A stretch of DNA of 64,000 nucleotides from Actinokineospora pegani. Its GTDB lineage: Bacteria; Actinomycetota; Actinomycetes; Mycobacteriales; Pseudonocardiaceae. Positions 9,532-61,696 of this stretch are shown here, in pieces; the first letter of the stretch is position 1, and each line of letters begins with the position of its first letter. A model generated the notes under the pieces. That model saw only the letters and a program-made list of their open reading frames with translations. It did not search any database and was not told where the DNA came from. Position numbers and translations under genes: made by a program. Location of the stretch: contig NZ_WHOL01000065.1 of assembly GCF_009745975.1 (NCBI RefSeq), positions 1 to 64,000 on the forward strand. Direction: 5' to 3'.

Positions 9532-9783
9532 GTGGCTGAGAAGAAGCCGGAGGCGCAGGAGAAGTACCTCGCGCTGGTGTCGGCGATGGACGCGGTTCAG
9601 GAGGGTCTGGACGGGTTGACCCGTCTGATCAAGAGCTACTCGCCGCCGCAGACGAACTGGCGGACGAAGTCCAAGCGGGAGTTGCAGGGGCTGCGCACCA
9701 ACGCGCAGAACAAGTTGGATGACCTGCGGCAGATCGCGAAGAACTACGAGGCCGAGATGGTCGCGAAGGAGTGGAGGCTCTGA
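9532..9783 (+). CDS. hypothetical small coiled-coil protein
   Basis: This 83-aa protein (MAEKKPEAQEKYLALVSAM...) is mostly charged helix: KSKRELQGLRTNAQNKLDDL followed by RQIAKNYEAEMVAKEWRL looks like a coiled coil. It starts with GTG after a gaaaggtag sequence. Its stop overlaps the next start (TGATG at 9781-9785), so the two are co-translated and may form a complex. The function is unknown. Confidence 0.6.
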   Translation: MAEKKPEAQEKYLALVSAMDAVQEGLDGLTRLIKSYSPPQTNWRTKSKRELQGLRTNAQNKLDDLRQIAKNYEAEMVAKEWRL

Positions 9784-9968
9784 TGTCGCACCAGGTGGAG
9801 AACACGCTGGCCGAGATGGACGCGGCGATGAACAAGCTCAAGGCCGCGTATGAGGACATCAAGATCCGACGGGAGTTCTTCGGCGTGCACCACAAGGTCC
9901 TGACGACGGCGGTGGCGCGGTTGACGGTCGAGGTGGCCGACAGCCAGGCGGGGTTCGAGTTCGGCTGA
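9783..9968 (+). CDS. hypothetical small helical protein
   Basis: This 61-aa protein (MSHQVENTLAEMDAAMNKLK...) is helical with heptad-like spacing and ends SQAGFEFG. It overlaps the previous gene at TGATG, and GGAGG lies just before the ATG, inside the end of that gene. I cannot assign a function; pairing with the preceding coiled-coil protein is inferred from coupling. Confidence 0.55.
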   Translation: MSHQVENTLAEMDAAMNKLKAAYEDIKIRREFFGVHHKVLTTAVARLTVEVADSQAGFEFG

Positions 9969-10094
9969 TCGACCCTGGCGGGTCCGGGGACAACTGAACA
10001 CGGTTAGACGGCATGGCGACCGGCCTCGTGCACCCCTTGGTGGTGTGTGGGGCCGGTCGCCGTTTCTCACCCCTTTCGGAAGGGAGGACGGCAG

Positions 10095-11489
10095 ATGAGC
10101 AAGCAGAGCAAGCGTCACCCCGGGGCGGAGTTCCGGGCGGCGGCGTGGTTGGTGCGGCACCCGGGGTGGTCGGGGGTGCCGGTGGCGTTGTCGACGTCGG
10201 CGGCGACGTTGGGTGTGGACGGGACCGCAGGGGTCGGGGGCGCGGTGCTGGGCGCGGGTTTGGTGGCGTGCGGGGGTTGGTATCGGGGTCACCCGGACAC
10301 GTGGGACCGGTTCGCGGCCCCGGTGTGGCGGGCGTGGCGGCGGCGCTGGTGGACCTATGTGGGGTGGCGGTGGCGGGACGCGGTCGAGGACTGCGGGTTG
10401 ACCACCACCAACGCCCGGACCGGGCAGGTGCGACGTCCTCGGGTGATCCGGGTCCGCTCCTGGTCCCCGTCCACGGACGTGATCACGGTGCGGATGGTCC
10501 CCGGTCAGGCGCTCTCGACCTGGGAGCAGCGGTTGCCGGAGCTGACGGAGTCGCTGCGCGCGGTCCGGCTCGGGGTGTCGAAGGTCAAGCCGCGGGTCAT
10601 CGCCCTGGTGGTGCAGCGCTCCGAGCCGTTCACCGACCTGATCCCGGCCCCGGCCATGGCCGCGATCGTCGGCGATGTCGACGTGTCGGCGGTCTACCTC
10701 GGCGAGACCGAGCACGGCCAAGACCTGACGGTGGACCTGTTGGGACAGCACGTGTTCATCGCGGGTGCCACCGGGGCGGGGAAGAACTCACTTGTCGCGT
10801 CGATGCTGCGGGTGATCGCCCCGTTGGTGCGGGACGGGTTGGTCCGGCTGTGGATTGCGGACCCCAAGAAAAGCGAGTTCGCCGCGCTGGAATCGATCGC
10901 GTACCGCTTCGCCACCGACACCGAGAAGGTCGACGAGGCCGGGGTGTACTCGATCGCGGACATGATCAAGCAGTTCCGGGCGGAGATGGAGGCCCGGCAG
11001 GCGGCGTTGGGAAAAGCCAAGAAGCGCAAGTTCACCATGTCGGCCGAGACCCCGTTGGACCTGCTGATCCTCGACGAGTTGGGCGCGATCACCGCCTACG
11101 GCGACATCGCCCGGGTGGTGCGCCGCGACCTGGCGGTGATCGCCACCCAGGGGCGTGCTTCGGGGCACCGCATGTGGGGGTTGGTGCAGGAGCCCTCCAA
11201 AGACGTTGTCCCGATCCGGGACCTGTTCACCTTCCGGGTCTGCCTGCGGGTCACCTCGGCCGCCCAGGTGGACATGGTCCTGGGGGAGAACGCCCGTGCC
11301 CGTGGGGCCCTGGCCGACGAGATCCCCAACATCGACGAGACCGCCGGGATCGGGTTCGTCATCGAGCCCCGTTCCCGCACCCCGGTTCGGGTCCGGGCCG
11401 CGTTCGTCTCCGACGCCGAGTTGACCGAGTTCGTCGAGTTCGTTTCCCACGGCCCCGACCTGGGGCCCTCACTGAGGGTGGTTGCCTGA
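10095..11489 (+). CDS. FtsK/SpoIIIE-type conjugal transfer ATPase (TraB/TraSA-like)
   Basis: In actinomycete elements a single FtsK-like hexameric translocase moves double-stranded DNA between mycelial cells. This 464-aa protein has two N-terminal hydrophobic stretches (about 25-65), then a RecA-like motor. Walker A is GATGAGKN (224-231), Walker B is LDLLILDELGAI, and an arginine-rich sensor region (VIATQGRASGHRMWGLVQ) follows. The residue after the Walker lysine is Asn, not Ser/Thr. The start follows GGGAGG at 10081-10086. It overlaps the next gene by one base. A C-terminal winged helix that would read the clt site is not obvious. Confidence 0.88.
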   Translation: MSKQSKRHPGAEFRAAAWLVRHPGWSGVPVALSTSAATLGVDGTAGVGGAVLGAGLVACGGWYRGHPDTWDRFAAPVWRAWRRRWWTYVGWRWRDAVEDCGLTTTNARTGQVRRPRVIRVRSWSPSTDVITVRMVPGQALSTWEQRLPELTESLRAVRLGVSKVKPRVIALVVQRSEPFTDLIPAPAMAAIVGDVDVSAVYLGETEHGQDLTVDLLGQHVFIAGATGAGKNSLVASMLRVIAPLVRDGLVRLWIADPKKSEFAALESIAYRFATDTEKVDEAGVYSIADMIKQFRAEMEARQAALGKAKKRKFTMSAETPLDLLILDELGAITAYGDIARVVRRDLAVIATQGRASGHRMWGLVQEPSKDVVPIRDLFTFRVCLRVTSAAQVDMVLGENARARGALADEIPNIDETAGIGFVIEPRSRTPVRVRAAFVSDAELTEFVEFVSHGPDLGPSLRVVA

Positions 11490-40230: not shown

Positions 40231-41415
40231 GTGAACTGGGTCGACGTCCTCGTCGTCGCGCTCGCGGTGCTGGCCGCGGTGTCCGGCGCGCGCCAGGGGG
40301 TGATCACCGCGCTGCCCGCTTTCCTGGGGGTGCTGCTCGGCGCGATCGCCGGGATCAAGGTCGCCCCGCTGGTGGTGGCGCAGATCGACTCGACGCCGAC
40401 CAGGGTGGCCTTCGCGGTGGCGGTGTTCGTGCTGCTCGTGGCGCTGGGCGAGACGTTCGGGGTGTGGATCGGCCGCACCGTCCGGCAGAAGATCGACTCG
40501 CCGCGGCTGGCCGGGGTGGACAGCGCGCTGGGCGCGGTGGTGCAGGGCGCCGTCGTGTTCGTGGTCTCCTGGCTGATCGCGCTGCCGCTGACCTCGGTCG
40601 GCGGTCTGCCCGGCCTGGCCTCGGCGATCAACAACTCGACGATCCTCGGCGGGGTCAACGAGGTGATGCCGCAGGCCGCCCGCGGCCTGCCCAACGAGCT
40701 GCGCGAGCTGCTCGACGTCTCCGGCTTCCCGGCCGCGGTCGACCCGTTCAACCGCACGCCGAACAAGGAGGTCGACCCGCCGGACCCGGCGCTGCAGGCC
40801 AGCGACGTCGTGCAGCGGGTGCGCGGCAGCGTGCTCAAGATCAACGCCCGGGCCCCCTCCTGCGAGCGGGCGCTGGAGGGCAGCGGGTTCGTCATCGCCC
40901 CGCAGCGGGTGATGACCAACGCGCACGTGGTCGCGGGCACCGACGAGGTGGCCGTGGAGTCGCAGGGCCGGTCGCTGCGGGCCCGGGTCGTGCTCTACGA
41001 CCCGGCGACCGATGTCGCGGTCCTGTCCGTGCCCGGCCTGTCCGCCGAGCCGCTGCCGTTCGCCCCCGGTGACGCCGTCAGCGGCCAGGACGGCATCGTC
41101 CTGGGCTACCCGCTCGACGGCCCCTACACCTCCTCGCCCGCCCGGGTGCGCGACCGCATCCCGCTGCGCGGACCGGACATCTACGACGCCGCCACGGTCA
41201 ACCGCGACGTGTTCACGCTGCGCGCCAAGGTGCTCAGCGGCAACTCCGGTGGCCCGCTGGTCGACACGCAGGGCCGGGTGATCGGGGTGGTGTTCGGCGC
41301 CGCTGTGGACAACTCCGAGACCGGTTTCGCCCTCACCGCCGCCGAGGTGCGCGAGGAGGTCGGGCAGGCCCCGTCGCTGACCCAGCCGGTCGGCACCGGC
41401 CGCTGCGCGACCTGA
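40231..41415 (+). CDS. marP: membrane serine protease MarP
   Basis: A 394-aa protein with four N-terminal membrane helices (about 1-130, CvpA-like) and a periplasmic chymotrypsin-like protease domain. The triad is His232 (TNAHVV), Asp261 (ATDVAVL) and Ser339 (SGNSGGPL). Two cysteines, in SCERALEG and at the C-terminus (GRCAT), match the disulfide that locks MarP. In M. tuberculosis MarP supports acid resistance. GTG start directly follows the NUDIX stop. Confidence 0.93.
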   Translation: MNWVDVLVVALAVLAAVSGARQGVITALPAFLGVLLGAIAGIKVAPLVVAQIDSTPTRVAFAVAVFVLLVALGETFGVWIGRTVRQKIDSPRLAGVDSALGAVVQGAVVFVVSWLIALPLTSVGGLPGLASAINNSTILGGVNEVMPQAARGLPNELRELLDVSGFPAAVDPFNRTPNKEVDPPDPALQASDVVQRVRGSVLKINARAPSCERALEGSGFVIAPQRVMTNAHVVAGTDEVAVESQGRSLRARVVLYDPATDVAVLSVPGLSAEPLPFAPGDAVSGQDGIVLGYPLDGPYTSSPARVRDRIPLRGPDIYDAATVNRDVFTLRAKVLSGNSGGPLVDTQGRVIGVVFGAAVDNSETGFALTAAEVREEVGQAPSLTQPVGTGRCAT

Positions 41416-41433: not shown

Positions 41434-42681
41434 TCAGGGGGCGAGGCGGTTGAGGTCGCGCGGGAACAGGGTCGTCTCCCTGACGTTGCGCAACCCCAGC
41501 AGCCGGGCCGTCCACCGCTCCAGCCCAATGGCGAAACCACCGTGCGGGGGCATCCCGTGCGCGAACGCCTCCAAGTAGGAGGCGTACGGCTCCGGGTCGT
41601 CCAGCACGGCCAGGTAGTCGGCGTGGCGGTGCAGCCGCTGTCCGCCTGTCACCAGCTCCACGCCCCGGAAGAGCAGGTCGAAGCTGTTGGAGCTGTCTGG
41701 CCGCTCGGGGTCGGGATGGGTGTAGAACGGCCTCTTGCTCATTGGGTAGCCGGTGACGAAGAGGAAGTCCGAGCCGTGTTCCCGGAGGGCCCACTCGGAC
41801 AGCCACCGCTCATGCGCGGGGGCGAGGTCGGGCTCCCCACGCGGGTCTTCGTCTGTGTGCTCCGCCAGCAGCTCTTGGGCTTCCAGGAAATGCACGGCCG
41901 GGATCTCCGGCGGTGATATCGGCACCTCGGTCAGCTCAGACGCCGCTGCGAGCATCCCCGCGATCACCTGCGTCAGCAGGACCATGACGTCGCGGTGGTC
42001 GCGGATGAAGCCGAGTTCGGCGTCCAGGCTCGTGTACTGCGCGAGGTGCCGGGTCGTGTCGTGCGGTTCGGCGCGGAACACCGGACCGACCTCGTAGACC
42101 CGTTCGAACACGCCGACAAGCGTTTGCTTGTAGAGCTGCGGCGACTGGGCCAGGTGGGCGCGGCGACCGAAGAAGTCCACGTCGAAGACGTTGGCGCCGG
42201 ACTCGGTGGCCGTGCCGACCAGCTTGGGCGTGTGCGTCTCGGTGAAGCCCAGCCCGTCCAGCACGGACCGGAACCCGGCCACGCTCGCCGCCGCCACCGC
42301 GAACCGGCGCCGCAGCTCCGGGTGCCGCAGGGCCACGGGGGCGTGGTCGAGCAGCACCGGCAGGCCGACCGGCAGCGTCGGCCGGTACAGGTCGAACGGC
42401 GGGGGCTGGGCCTCGGCGAGCACCTCGACGCGCGCCTCGGCCACCTCGACCCCACCAGGCGCCTGCGGGTTGGCCGTCGCGACGCCGAGGACTTCGACCA
42501 CCGACTCCTCGCCCGGCGCGTCCGCCTCCGGGGGCAGGACCACCTGGGCCAGGCCGGACCGGTCGCGCACGACCAGGAATGTCACGGACTTCAACTGCCG
42601 CCTGCGCTGGACCCAGCCGGCGATGCGAACGGGCTCGCCGACGTGCGAAGGCAGGTCGACGGCAAGAGAACGTGAGATCAT
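41434..42681 (-). CDS. aspS: aspartyl-tRNA synthetase, short archaeal-type
   Basis: A 415-aa class II synthetase, much shorter than bacterial AspRS (~590 aa). It has an N-terminal OB-fold anticodon domain (VRIAGWVQRRRQLKSVTFLV), motif 2 (PVFRAEPHDTTRHLAQYTSL) and motif 3 (GFAIGLERWTARLLGLRNV, then RDLNRLAP). Such enzymes may be discriminating or may also charge tRNA-Asn. Genomes like this usually also have a bacterial-type AspRS elsewhere, so this may be an extra, inducible or resistance copy; inference. A T-box leader precedes it. ATG 42681 follows GTG GTG codons. Confidence 0.9.
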   Translation of the reverse strand: MISRSLAVDLPSHVGEPVRIAGWVQRRRQLKSVTFLVVRDRSGLAQVVLPPEADAPGEESVVEVLGVATANPQAPGGVEVAEARVEVLAEAQPPPFDLYRPTLPVGLPVLLDHAPVALRHPELRRRFAVAAASVAGFRSVLDGLGFTETHTPKLVGTATESGANVFDVDFFGRRAHLAQSPQLYKQTLVGVFERVYEVGPVFRAEPHDTTRHLAQYTSLDAELGFIRDHRDVMVLLTQVIAGMLAAASELTEVPISPPEIPAVHFLEAQELLAEHTDEDPRGEPDLAPAHERWLSEWALREHGSDFLFVTGYPMSKRPFYTHPDPERPDSSNSFDLLFRGVELVTGGQRLHRHADYLAVLDDPEPYASYLEAFAHGMPPHGGFAIGLERWTARLLGLRNVRETTLFPRDLNRLAP

Positions 42682-42789
42682 CACCACTGCTTCCTTCTCC
42701 CACCCGCCCCCTCGTCCCCACCCGGCACGGTTCCCGGCGTGGCAGGACGGCTGCCGGTTGGGCGGGGGAGCGGTTGAGAGATGTGGACG

Positions 42790-43060
42790 CTGATCCCTTG
42801 GGAGTGCGGGCGAGAAGGGTGCTCGCGGTGCCACCGCACTTTCACCGCCAGGGGCGGCCTCGTTCAGGCCCGTTACGCGGGCCAACCGGCAGGGCATGGG
42901 GCGGGCCACCGACTGCGACCGCCGTTCCTCCCCGCGCTCAGGAGTGTCTTCACCATGGGGCGCGAGGCCGCCTCCCAGCCGACGGCGGCTCTCTCCGGCT
43001 CGCGGGCTCCCCTGGCTACTTGTCTCCTTCTTCGCGTTGCGGAGAAGGGTAGCGAGACGG
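42790..43060 (-). promoter_or_regulatory. T-box leader with Asp (GAC) specifier
   Basis: On the minus strand, upstream of aspS, the leader shows T-box elements in order: AGTA (43020-43017), a distal GGAGAGAG motif (42996-42989), a specifier loop GAA-GAC-AC with GAC at 42948-42946, and the T-box TGGCACCGCG within 42835-42824. GAC is an aspartate codon, matching the gene it precedes. In T-boxes the uncharged tRNA base-pairs with specifier and T-box and switches expression on. Boundaries are approximate; the downstream expression platform was not resolved. Confidence 0.82.
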
Positions 43061-43076
43061 GCTGTCGGTCCGCGCG

Positions 43077-43997
43077 TCAGTTTCGGGCGAGGAACTCGGT
43101 GAGAAGGGTGTTGACGCTGTCCGGGGTCTCTTCGTGGGGGAAATGACCCGCACCGGGGATGTCGTGGCGCTGTCCACCGCGAGAGGCGTCGCGGGTGCGC
43201 TTGAGGATGAGCGGGTCGTCCGCGCCGTAGAGCTGTTGCAACGGGGTGGTGATGTCCTTGCTCATCGCCTCGGTGTAGCGGCGGCCCTCGTTGCGCAACT
43301 GGGAGCGGGCGGCCCAGCGGTAGTACTCCATCGAGCAGTGCGCGGCGCCGGGGACCAGCGCGGCGTCCCGGCAGCGGCTCACCGACTCGACGAAGTCCGC
43401 CGAGGTCTGCCAGCGCGGCCCCGACCAGGACCGGATCATGGTCTCGACGACCGCGCCGCGCTCGCGGACCAGCCACCGCTCCGGCAGCACCGGGACCTGC
43501 GCCCGGAACACGTGGCCCAGCGCGAAGGCCTGGTTGCGGGAGCGCCCGCGCAGCGCGGTGCGGCGGATCTGGTCGCGCAGCACGAGCGGGTGCGGGGCGC
43601 CGATGGCCGTGACGGACCGGGTGACCCTGGGGTGCAGCGCGGCCACCGACCAGCCCAGCAGACCACCCCACCCGTGCCCGACCAAGTGCGCGCGCGGCTC
43701 ACCGAGGGAGCGGACCAGCCCGGCCACGTCGCCTGCCAGCGTCCAGGCGTCGTAACCGCGCGGGGGCTTGTCGGAGTCGCCGTAGCCGCGCAGGTCCACC
43801 GCCACCGCCCGGTACCCGGCGTCGGCCAGGGCGGGCAACTGGTGGCGCCACGTCCACCAGAACTGGGCGAACCCGTGCAGCAGCAGCACCAGCGGACCCG
43901 ACCCGGCCTCGGCGACGTGCAGCCGGATGCCGTTGGCGTGCACGTCGCGGTGCGCCCACGGCCCGGCCACGCGGACCGACGACGGGTCGGGCGGCAC
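43077..43997 (-). CDS. alpha/beta hydrolase, epoxide hydrolase-like (EphE position)
   Basis: A 306-aa alpha/beta-hydrolase with the epoxide-hydrolase pattern: LLLHGFAQFWWTWRHQLPAL and GYGDSDKP. At the nucleophile elbow the sequence is VGHGWGGLLGW: Gly109 stands where epoxide hydrolases carry Asp (GHDWGG). The acid (YGADDPL) and base His (PGAGHFPHEE) regions are present. Without the nucleophile classical hydrolysis is unlikely. The position between holin-like gene and marP matches ephE (Rv3670). GTG start at 43997. Confidence 0.82.
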   Translation of the reverse strand: MPPDPSSVRVAGPWAHRDVHANGIRLHVAEAGSGPLVLLLHGFAQFWWTWRHQLPALADAGYRAVAVDLRGYGDSDKPPRGYDAWTLAGDVAGLVRSLGEPRAHLVGHGWGGLLGWSVAALHPRVTRSVTAIGAPHPLVLRDQIRRTALRGRSRNQAFALGHVFRAQVPVLPERWLVRERGAVVETMIRSWSGPRWQTSADFVESVSRCRDAALVPGAAHCSMEYYRWAARSQLRNEGRRYTEAMSKDITTPLQQLYGADDPLILKRTRDASRGGQRHDIPGAGHFPHEETPDSVNTLLTEFLARN

Positions 43998-61145: not shown

Positions 61146-61696
61146 CCGGTCAGCATAGGGAAGCAGTGGTGTGGACCGGATGGCCGAGGCGAACGGGGGA
61201 CGTACACAGCACGGATGAGCCGCGGTGCATCTTGGCGGCACTTCTGCTCCGAACTCGCCCCCGGGGTGGCGCGGACGAGATACAGTATGCGCAGCCCGGC
61301 TTCGAGCCGGGCGGTTCAGTCCGACCCCCCGGGGCTGAACCTCTGACGACCCCCGCCCCTCCCCCCTGGCGGGGGTCGTCCCTTTTTCGGGTCCGATCCG
61401 CCTTCTTCGCAGGTCTTGGTCTTGGTCAACACCGATTGGTGAACTCTCGTCGGGTGCTGGCGTTCGCCCAATCGGGTCTTCGTGTCCTGGCGCGCTTTCC
61501 TTGTCCGCTGCGGGTTTGAGGGTCCCCAGGGGATCGTCGCACCCCGGTCTGACGGAAACCCGCTCGCGCCCGCGAGTTGTCCACAAGCCCCATCGGTGGT
61601 CCACAGAAGTCGAGGACGTCTTCCCCGGCCCCCTCCGCCGCTCCGATGCTGTTTGCGACGGCCCGAACAGGCGGGCTCGGAGGGGGAGGCAAGGGC
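61146..61696. other. intergenic region upstream of ssd
   Basis: No gene supported apart from a small structured RNA candidate (61281-61388). The rest contains the divergent promoters of the HAD gene and ssd. Confidence 0.5.
61281..61388 (+). ncRNA. three-hairpin small RNA candidate with intrinsic terminator
   Basis: Three hairpins follow each other: gcccggc/gccgggc (61294-61312), ggttcag/ctgaacc (61313-61341) and gacgacccccgcc/ggcgggggtcgtc (61345-61380, 13 perfect pairs), then ccttttt. A TACAGT -10-like box lies at 61281-61286; no clear -35 is seen. No plus-strand gene precedes it, so the terminator suggests a short transcript. Confidence 0.5.

Follow-up and report, generated by a model that had tools for sequence, protein, structure and literature searches.

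A T-box leader with an aspartate specifier precedes an archaeal-type second aspartyl-tRNA synthetase gene in Actinokineospora pegani and in scattered other bacteria

The window analysed here, a stretch of 64,000 nt from Actinokineospora pegani, carries a gene for a short aspartyl-tRNA synthetase (aspS2, product AspRS2) that is preceded by a long leader and enclosed by genes for a MarP-family protease and an alpha/beta hydrolase (Table 1). Comparison of the protein with family models revealed 489.4 bits for NF003483 (cut-off 353), a family named aspartate--tRNA(Asn) ligase, and 302.3 bits for TIGR00458, which is under the cut-off of 368.4. The best PDB sequence was the Thermus AspRS2 (1n9w; E 1.1e-105), which is collinear with the 415 aa of the window's protein. 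The GAD insertion of bacterial enzymes is absent, as is characteristic of archaeal-type AspRS. A normal bacterial AspRS of 616 aa is encoded elsewhere in the genome (contig C50; NF001750: 836.8 bits, cut-off 443). The sequence-only reading of this DNA had predicted a longer second aspS in the genome and had suggested that the archaeal-type gene of this actinobacterium may be an inducible or inhibitor-resistant spare; the family score and the 616-aa gene bear out the archaeal type and the presence of a normal AspRS beside it. A T-box at the normal AspRS gene was considered and rejected, since the 4.3-kb stretch L001 showed no Rfam match (E <= 0.1) and no T-box core.

Table 1. Positions of the features at the aspS2 locus (numbering of the window).
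Feature	Position	Strand	Basis or remark
MarP-family protease gene, convergent, downstream of aspS2; unit boundary	40231..41415	+	NF033740, 494 bits
aspS2, archaeal-type (non-discriminating-type) AspRS, 415 aa, ATG at 42681	41434..42681	-	NF003483, 1n9w
TGATCTC, 3' strand of candidate sequestrator, overlaps start codon	42674..42680	-	
94-nt insert, long hairpin with repeat core, between T-box and start codon	42689..42782	-	boundaries by eye
AAGGA, likely Shine-Dalgarno	42692..42696	-	inferred from sequence and spacing
GGGATCA, 5' strand of candidate start-codon sequestrator	42791..42797	-	pairs with TGATCTC
Full-length T-box leader (Stem I, II, IIA/B, III, antisequestrator)	42803..43041	-	RF00230 match and covariation, 22 leaders
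Antisequestrator GUGCGG/CCGCAC + GCGAG/CUCGC with T-box bulge	42804..42839	-	helices 10 and 11, 100% paired
TGGCACCGCG, T-box sequence	42824..42833	-	letters; upstream of aspS2 (42681-41434)
UGGC of T-box bulge, complementary to tRNA-Asp acceptor end (discriminator G + CCA)	42830..42833	-	
Stem III	42844..42859	-	helix 9
Stem IIA/B pseudoknot region CCGG..GGCCC..CG..GGGCC	42867..42889	-	helices 7 and 8
Specifier codon GAC (Asp), in GAA-GAC-AC	42946..42948	-	RF00230 alignment and letters
Distal Stem I hairpin CCGCC...GGCGG	42968..42988	-	helix 4, 98.2% of cells paired
GGAGAGAG, AG-bulge element of long Stem I	42989..42996	-	letters and alignment A1
AGTA, specifier-loop motif, 5' side	43017..43020	-	letters; invariant in alignment A1
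TACCCT, candidate -10 element directly before the leader	43046..43051	-	position only; inferred
Alpha/beta hydrolase gene upstream of leader; other unit boundary	43077..43997	-	sub-cut-off hydrolase-family matches only

The same reading had placed an Asp-specific T-box riboswitch at 42682-43076 and had proposed a covariance search with RF00230 as a check. Searching 751 nt with cmscan revealed a match on the minus strand at 42803-43041 that covers the whole model (1-219 of 219; 47.7 bits, E 2.6e-9), the T-box part of that span stopping near 42803. The score is about half the Rfam gathering score of 93 and thus below the membership cut-off, which explains why a default Rfam scan of the whole window gave no RF00230 entry. 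Across the 6.4-Mb host genome the leader is the sole RF00230 match at E <= 1e-3. Elsewhere in the window, at 61310-61384, lies a 6C RNA (RF01066; 80.5 bits, gathering score 47). The motifs of the leader follow one another on the minus strand as had been claimed, with AGTA, GGAGAGAG, GAA-GAC-AC and TGGCACCGCG preceding aspS2. By analogy with other T-boxes, the distal Stem I hairpin would be the elbow-binding region.

The GAC specifier matches both the amino acid of the gene product and the anticodon GUC of the host tRNA. A tRNA-Asp arm pattern, which would miss a departing gene, was found at one place in the host genome, and ARAGORN called the gene there tRNA-Asp(gtc). Reading of this gene showed a G after the acceptor stem, and because the discriminator is G, the UGGC bulge of the leader fits the host tRNA-Asp.

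Our comparison included 37 relatives, 31 loci from one AspRS2 protein scan of genome contigs and six from the window's order. A T-box core was present upstream of the gene in 34 of them, 27 detected by a strict pattern and seven, which have TGGCACCACG or TGGCACAGCG, by reading; the exceptions were L041 (about 40% identity), L072 (29%) and L071, whose gene start lies off the contig. With the window's own, these are 35 leaders, 26 with a long and nine with an ultrashort Stem I, the latter class being defined by reading and a conserved bulge and not by Rfam. L056, the one of the nine ultrashort leaders that was searched with Rfam at E <= 0.1, gave no match, which counts against the T-box reading. 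For the ultrashort leaders a specifier one triplet further on was also considered; the first GAC was preferred because UGAC-G is invariant in 9/9 and the triplet that follows is variable (GAC, GAU, GCC). Of the 35 leaders, 34 have an Asp codon as specifier (GAC, and GAU once) and one has AAC; the specifiers of L061 (GAC) and L068 (GAT) were read by eye and the others by script. The AAC (Asn) codon is a probable, tentatively read specifier in a Chloroflexi MAG (locus L065). The AspRS2 leader of this locus extends over 9655-9923 and has a terminator-like hairpin by eye. Four of the 35 leaders display UGGU instead of UGGC, which counts against the switch: assuming that their tRNA-Asp has G as discriminator, they would pair with it only by wobble.

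An alignment of 22 long actinobacterial leaders (A1) was scored against a structure written by hand from the same sequences. In total, 96.1% of 1234 cells were paired over 57 pairs, a percentage that is favoured by the origin of the structure in the aligned sequences themselves, and two-sided changes were found at 18 of the 57 pairs, in nine of the 12 helices. No shuffle out of 500 reached any of five covariation measures, in a test in which related sequences can beat shuffles, and slid versions of the structure paired 44-52%. All cells of the antisequestrator are paired, and two pairs of its lower helix (helix 10) show two-sided changes. On the negative side, helices 1 and 11 are invariant and helix 7 has no two-sided change; the weakest is helix 2 in lower Stem I with 74.2% of cells paired. 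A loop helix, CCCUU/AAGGG (helix 12), pairs in 22/22 leaders, its two-sided changes coming from one sequence. It was considered as a pseudoknot with the antisequestrator and would compete for GGG with the start-codon hairpin. The window's leader itself has one mismatched IIA/B pair (G-G), with the other pairs intact by reading.

Stem I, Stem II, IIA/B, Stem III and the antisequestrator are therefore found in order and with covariation support. The Rfam score under the gathering score is what a chance resemblance without any riboswitch would account for, but the ordered motifs, the failure of all 500 shuffles, the core before the homologous gene in 34/37 relatives and the RF00230 matches of relatives at 90.5, 119.5, 63.5 and 43.2 bits speak against it; the covariation makes this explanation untenable, and we rejected it as virtually inconceivable. 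The RF00230 match, the covariation in 22 leaders and the fit of GAC and UGGC to tRNA-Asp uphold the claim of an Asp-specific T-box. The leader before aspS2 is a real T-box, of an ordinary kind in an unusual place.

The pairing of leader and AspRS2 was detected in Pseudonocardiaceae, Streptosporangiaceae, Streptomycetaceae and several Micrococcales families, and also in MAGs placed by their binning in Chloroflexi (two) or Bacillota (two). A tree was calculated from 39 protein rows, leaving out L055, in which the N-terminal part is out of frame, and L071 with its gene start off the contig. The rows without T-box had been checked by Rfam and pattern (L041 through L012, L081, L082, L083) or by pattern only (L072). 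All 34 T-box rows lie on one side of a branch with 100/99 support and the nine ultrashort rows form one clade (100/99); the program warned of long branches coming together at the outermost rows of the tree. Streptacidiphilus, contrary to its taxonomy, is placed together with Sphaerisporangium within Streptosporangiaceae (97/91). With a long Stem I before some of these homologues and an ultrashort one before others, the family offers a direct test of the purpose of the tRNA-elbow contact. In the Fodinicola locus (L055, about 10001-11288) the best AspRS2 segment covers residues 91-415 and the leader motifs are intact; the gene is possibly frameshifted or a pseudogene.

The family name of AspRS2 raises the question of its substrate. 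As in Thermus and Deinococcus, the enzyme might mainly make Asp-tRNA-Asn for GatCAB, and thus serve tRNA-dependent asparagine formation. The host genome has four PF00152 genes, including LysRS, and also GatB; among these four hits no AsnRS was recognised, and no fifth PF00152 gene was found. Residue 25 is H in 33 of the 34 T-box-clade rows with a letter there, and most rows of this clade have P in the L1 loop, two features that we take to mark non-discriminating AspRS. Together with the probable AAC specifier of the Chloroflexi MAG, these observations favour such a role. The window's enzyme, however, is the one row with Q at position 25, the Asp codons read in 34/35 leaders do not suggest a response to tRNA-Asn, and nearly all sampled actinobacteria are without AspRS2. 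We therefore regard a main role in Asp-tRNA-Asn synthesis as unlikely. The fourth PF00152 gene (L004, contig C70) appears by eye to be an asparagine-synthetase-type paralogue beside a glutamate-synthase-like frame; this class II synthetase-like paralogue perhaps belongs to a biosynthetic cluster.

A pattern scan of 42600-43150 revealed no terminator-like site (shuffles average 0.2). Because the window's leader shows no intrinsic terminator, control is probably translational. Other actinobacterial leaders were likewise judged terminator-less by eye; in two leaders from Chloroflexi, by contrast, long GC hairpins lie at this place. A hairpin of the GGGATCA/TGATCTC type around Shine-Dalgarno and start codon can form in 21 of the 22 long leaders; in the remaining one (L040) its place is taken by an unrelated hairpin, GCGTTGCG/TGCAACGC. 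The coding sequence (Met-Ile-Ser) may explain part of the conservation of this hairpin. For most Pseudonocardiaceae, strong pairing of the Shine-Dalgarno sequence with the 3' strand of the antisequestrator was predicted, for Streptosporangiaceae weak pairing. The minimum-energy fold of the window's leader, like that of the majority of the other long leaders, contains the antisequestrator together with the start-codon hairpin; this was counted against the model, and the switch is thus not explained by simple strand competition. The same pattern scan of 42600-43150 found no sigma-70-like promoter, also a negative point. Upstream of other long actinobacterial leaders, TA(N)3T hexamers are seen by eye at the place of the candidate -10 element.

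The start region of the window is exceptional in its insert, whose limits were set against L036 and which amounts to an extra 94 nt relative to the sister genome G004. The fold of 42686-42786 has -56.6 kcal/mol, and this hairpin is missing from the 21 other aligned long actinobacterial leaders. A 36-nt core of the insert gave 10 matches in the host genome (up to 3 mismatches; control 0), from fewer than 10 distinct sites because the end of contig C65 and the start of C113 look like the same stretch. Ten of the 16 genomes of the genus contain a 28-nt core (control 0 throughout). The core TGCCGGGYGGGGACGAGGGGGYGGGTGG (window 42700-42735) is a G-rich interspersed repeat with 45 matches in the genus member G012, and its copies have the core in common and not the whole hairpin. 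A similar G-rich stretch is seen by eye in the MarP-hydrolase gap of G012.

The insert may change or uncouple control in the window. If it disconnected the start region, the T-box would be a decayed one and the gene constitutive or silent here, and both the restriction of the 94-nt hairpin to this one leader and the mismatched IIA/B pair point that way. Against this stand the intact other pairs, the intact and conserved aspS2 reading frame and the position of the insert, which falls into the loop of the putative start-codon hairpin and leaves its two strands GGGATCA and TGATCTC in place. An uncoupled T-box thus seems distinctly improbable to us.

The distribution of the gene is patchy. Besides the window, close copies (at least 67% identity) were found in five of 60 searched relatives, with a copy of 42% in a further genome (G013). 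In a phylum sample of 396 genomes, two have close copies, the window's included, and three more have distant ones (38-41% identity). The sequence-only reading had called an AspRS leader of this kind unusual; with 2/396 genomes it is indeed rare, but not unique, as the same pairing occurs in several families and in MAGs binned to other phyla.

Of the 14 members of the genus whose corresponding site has no aspS2, 13 have the MarP and hydrolase genes directly side by side (gap of -3 to 89 nt); in the 14th the hydrolase was not found in the fetched stretch. Leader and gene fill this gap with 1661 nt in the window and about 1668 nt in the sister G004. In G012 the aspS2 copy lies on another contig and the MarP-hydrolase junction is empty. 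On good evidence, then, leader and gene are gained and lost jointly. Since such a site has either both regulator and synthetase or neither, the spread of spare synthetases as inducible protection becomes testable.

A search of a plasmid collection revealed 17 records at E <= 1e-60. They include a 1.39-Mb Rhodococcus plasmid, a 1.8-Mb plasmid of Streptantibioticus cattleyicolor (match to residues 3-327 only), an 11.85-Mb Nonomuraea record labelled as a plasmid, and Paraclostridium plasmids with copies at about 40% identity. RF00230 matches precede three of the four plasmid copies examined (119.5, 63.5 and 43.2 bits). The Rhodococcus plasmid leader (L120), ultrashort by reading only, gave no RF00230 match at E <= 0.01, which likewise counts against the T-box reading; a frame upstream of it is, by eye, presumably transposase-like. 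Upstream of the Paraclostridium bifermentans plasmid aspS (L122, 2100-2450), a GAC T-box (119.5 bits) is followed by a second antiterminator-like T-box sequence by reading.

Taken as a whole, we consider it highly probable that a tRNA-Asp-specific T-box controls a back-up archaeal-type AspRS2, and that leader and gene travel as a unit which is gained and lost sporadically. The lack of widely shared neighbour genes and the copies on megaplasmids of Rhodococcus and S. cattleyicolor speak for this view. Since they look like a portable unit scattered in distant bacteria, AspRS2 is likely an emergency enzyme, and an inducible back-up is the likeliest reason for keeping a spare. Levels of Asp-tRNA-Asp would drop when aspartate runs short or when the normal AspRS fails or is inhibited. 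Uncharged tRNA-Asp would then bind the leader through its GUC anticodon at the GAC specifier and its GCCA end at the UGGC bulge; the antisequestrator would be stabilised, the Shine-Dalgarno and start region freed and AspRS2 made. With tRNA-Asp charged, the start region would remain sequestered.

A narrower form of the back-up role, compatible with it, is inducible self-protection, in which AspRS2 would replace the normal enzyme when a natural AspRS inhibitor raises uncharged tRNA-Asp. The spare is of a different subtype, patchy and apparently spread horizontally, and the host families are rich in antibiotic producers. Resistant spare SerRS, IleRS and TrpRS have been published and provide precedents (PMC9437257). 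The neighbourhood, on the other hand, gives no hint of an inhibitor: in a comparison of frames with third-position GC of at least 0.8, the widest neighbour family besides the gene and antisense frames occurs in 6/36 loci, 3-6 kb away, the flanking genes of 10 loci look unrelated by eye, and no inhibitor is known here. Locus L065 was emptied in this comparison because frames with third-position GC below 0.8 were excluded. We hold self-protection to be possible, though somewhat less likely than not. In the Solihabitans locus (L069) a divergent PheRS-type paralogue-like frame lies beside AspRS2 by eye, with no further T-box core next to it.

A broader version would see in leader and gene a mobile cassette of tRNA-Asp alarm and spare AspRS that protects Actinomycetota, Chloroflexota and Bacillota against AspRS inhibition, that changed once from long to ultrashort Stem I, and whose sequestrator loop tolerates a repeat. 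This version is possible but rather doubtful.

Comparison with known systems showed that the window's leader corresponds to T-box leaders of RF00230 in its AGTA/AGAGAG Stem I, specifier loop, Stem II, IIA/B, Stem III, UGGN and the aminoacyl-tRNA synthetase gene downstream, and differs from typical members in being GC-rich, in scoring under the gathering score and in that no terminator was found. In Clostridium acetobutylicum, a T-box-controlled aspS/gatCAB reportedly connects tRNA-dependent amidation and asparagine, to go by the titles of Saad 2012/2013. The locus described here differs from aspS/gatCAB in its GAC specifier, its stand-alone gene and its actinobacterial host. The two cases share a genome with several AspRS genes and a T-box before one of these; C. 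acetobutylicum has three aspS genes, one with a T-box (PMC2494555).

AspRS2 of Thermus thermophilus (1n9w, 3kfu) belongs to the same family as the window's enzyme, aligns with it over residues 4-415 and also occurs beside a bacterial AspRS, Thermus having two AspRS (PMC4206432). In contrast to Thermus, the gene described here is preceded by a T-box, and at position 25 the window's enzyme carries Q in place of the H of its relatives. For Actinomycetales, additional AspRS genes with GatCAB, mostly without AsnRS, were noted in 2014, and the second AspRS, the GatB and the lack of a recognised AsnRS in our host agree with that description; the word 'T-box' appears twice in PMC4206432, both times in its reference list, so that these genes are not connected with a T-box there. 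Our literature search found no description of an Asp T-box at an aspS gene of Actinobacteria. The aspS mentioned in PMC7927825 concerns a histidine T-box before hisS-aspS. TBDB, which scanned actinobacterial reference genomes (PMC7778990), may list these leaders unremarked.

A parallel within the phylum is provided by the translational ileS T-boxes of Actinobacteria (PMC1262725), which have a start-region hairpin instead of a terminator, as is predicted for our leaders, and which the ultrashort Stem I of our Micrococcales members resembles. Unlike them, the leaders described here have an Asp specifier, precede an AspRS2 gene and mostly display a full-length Stem I, a feature of only a few translational T-boxes according to PMC7583486. 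The family would add tRNA-Asp sensing, mostly with a full-length Stem I, to the actinobacterial T-boxes described before ileS.
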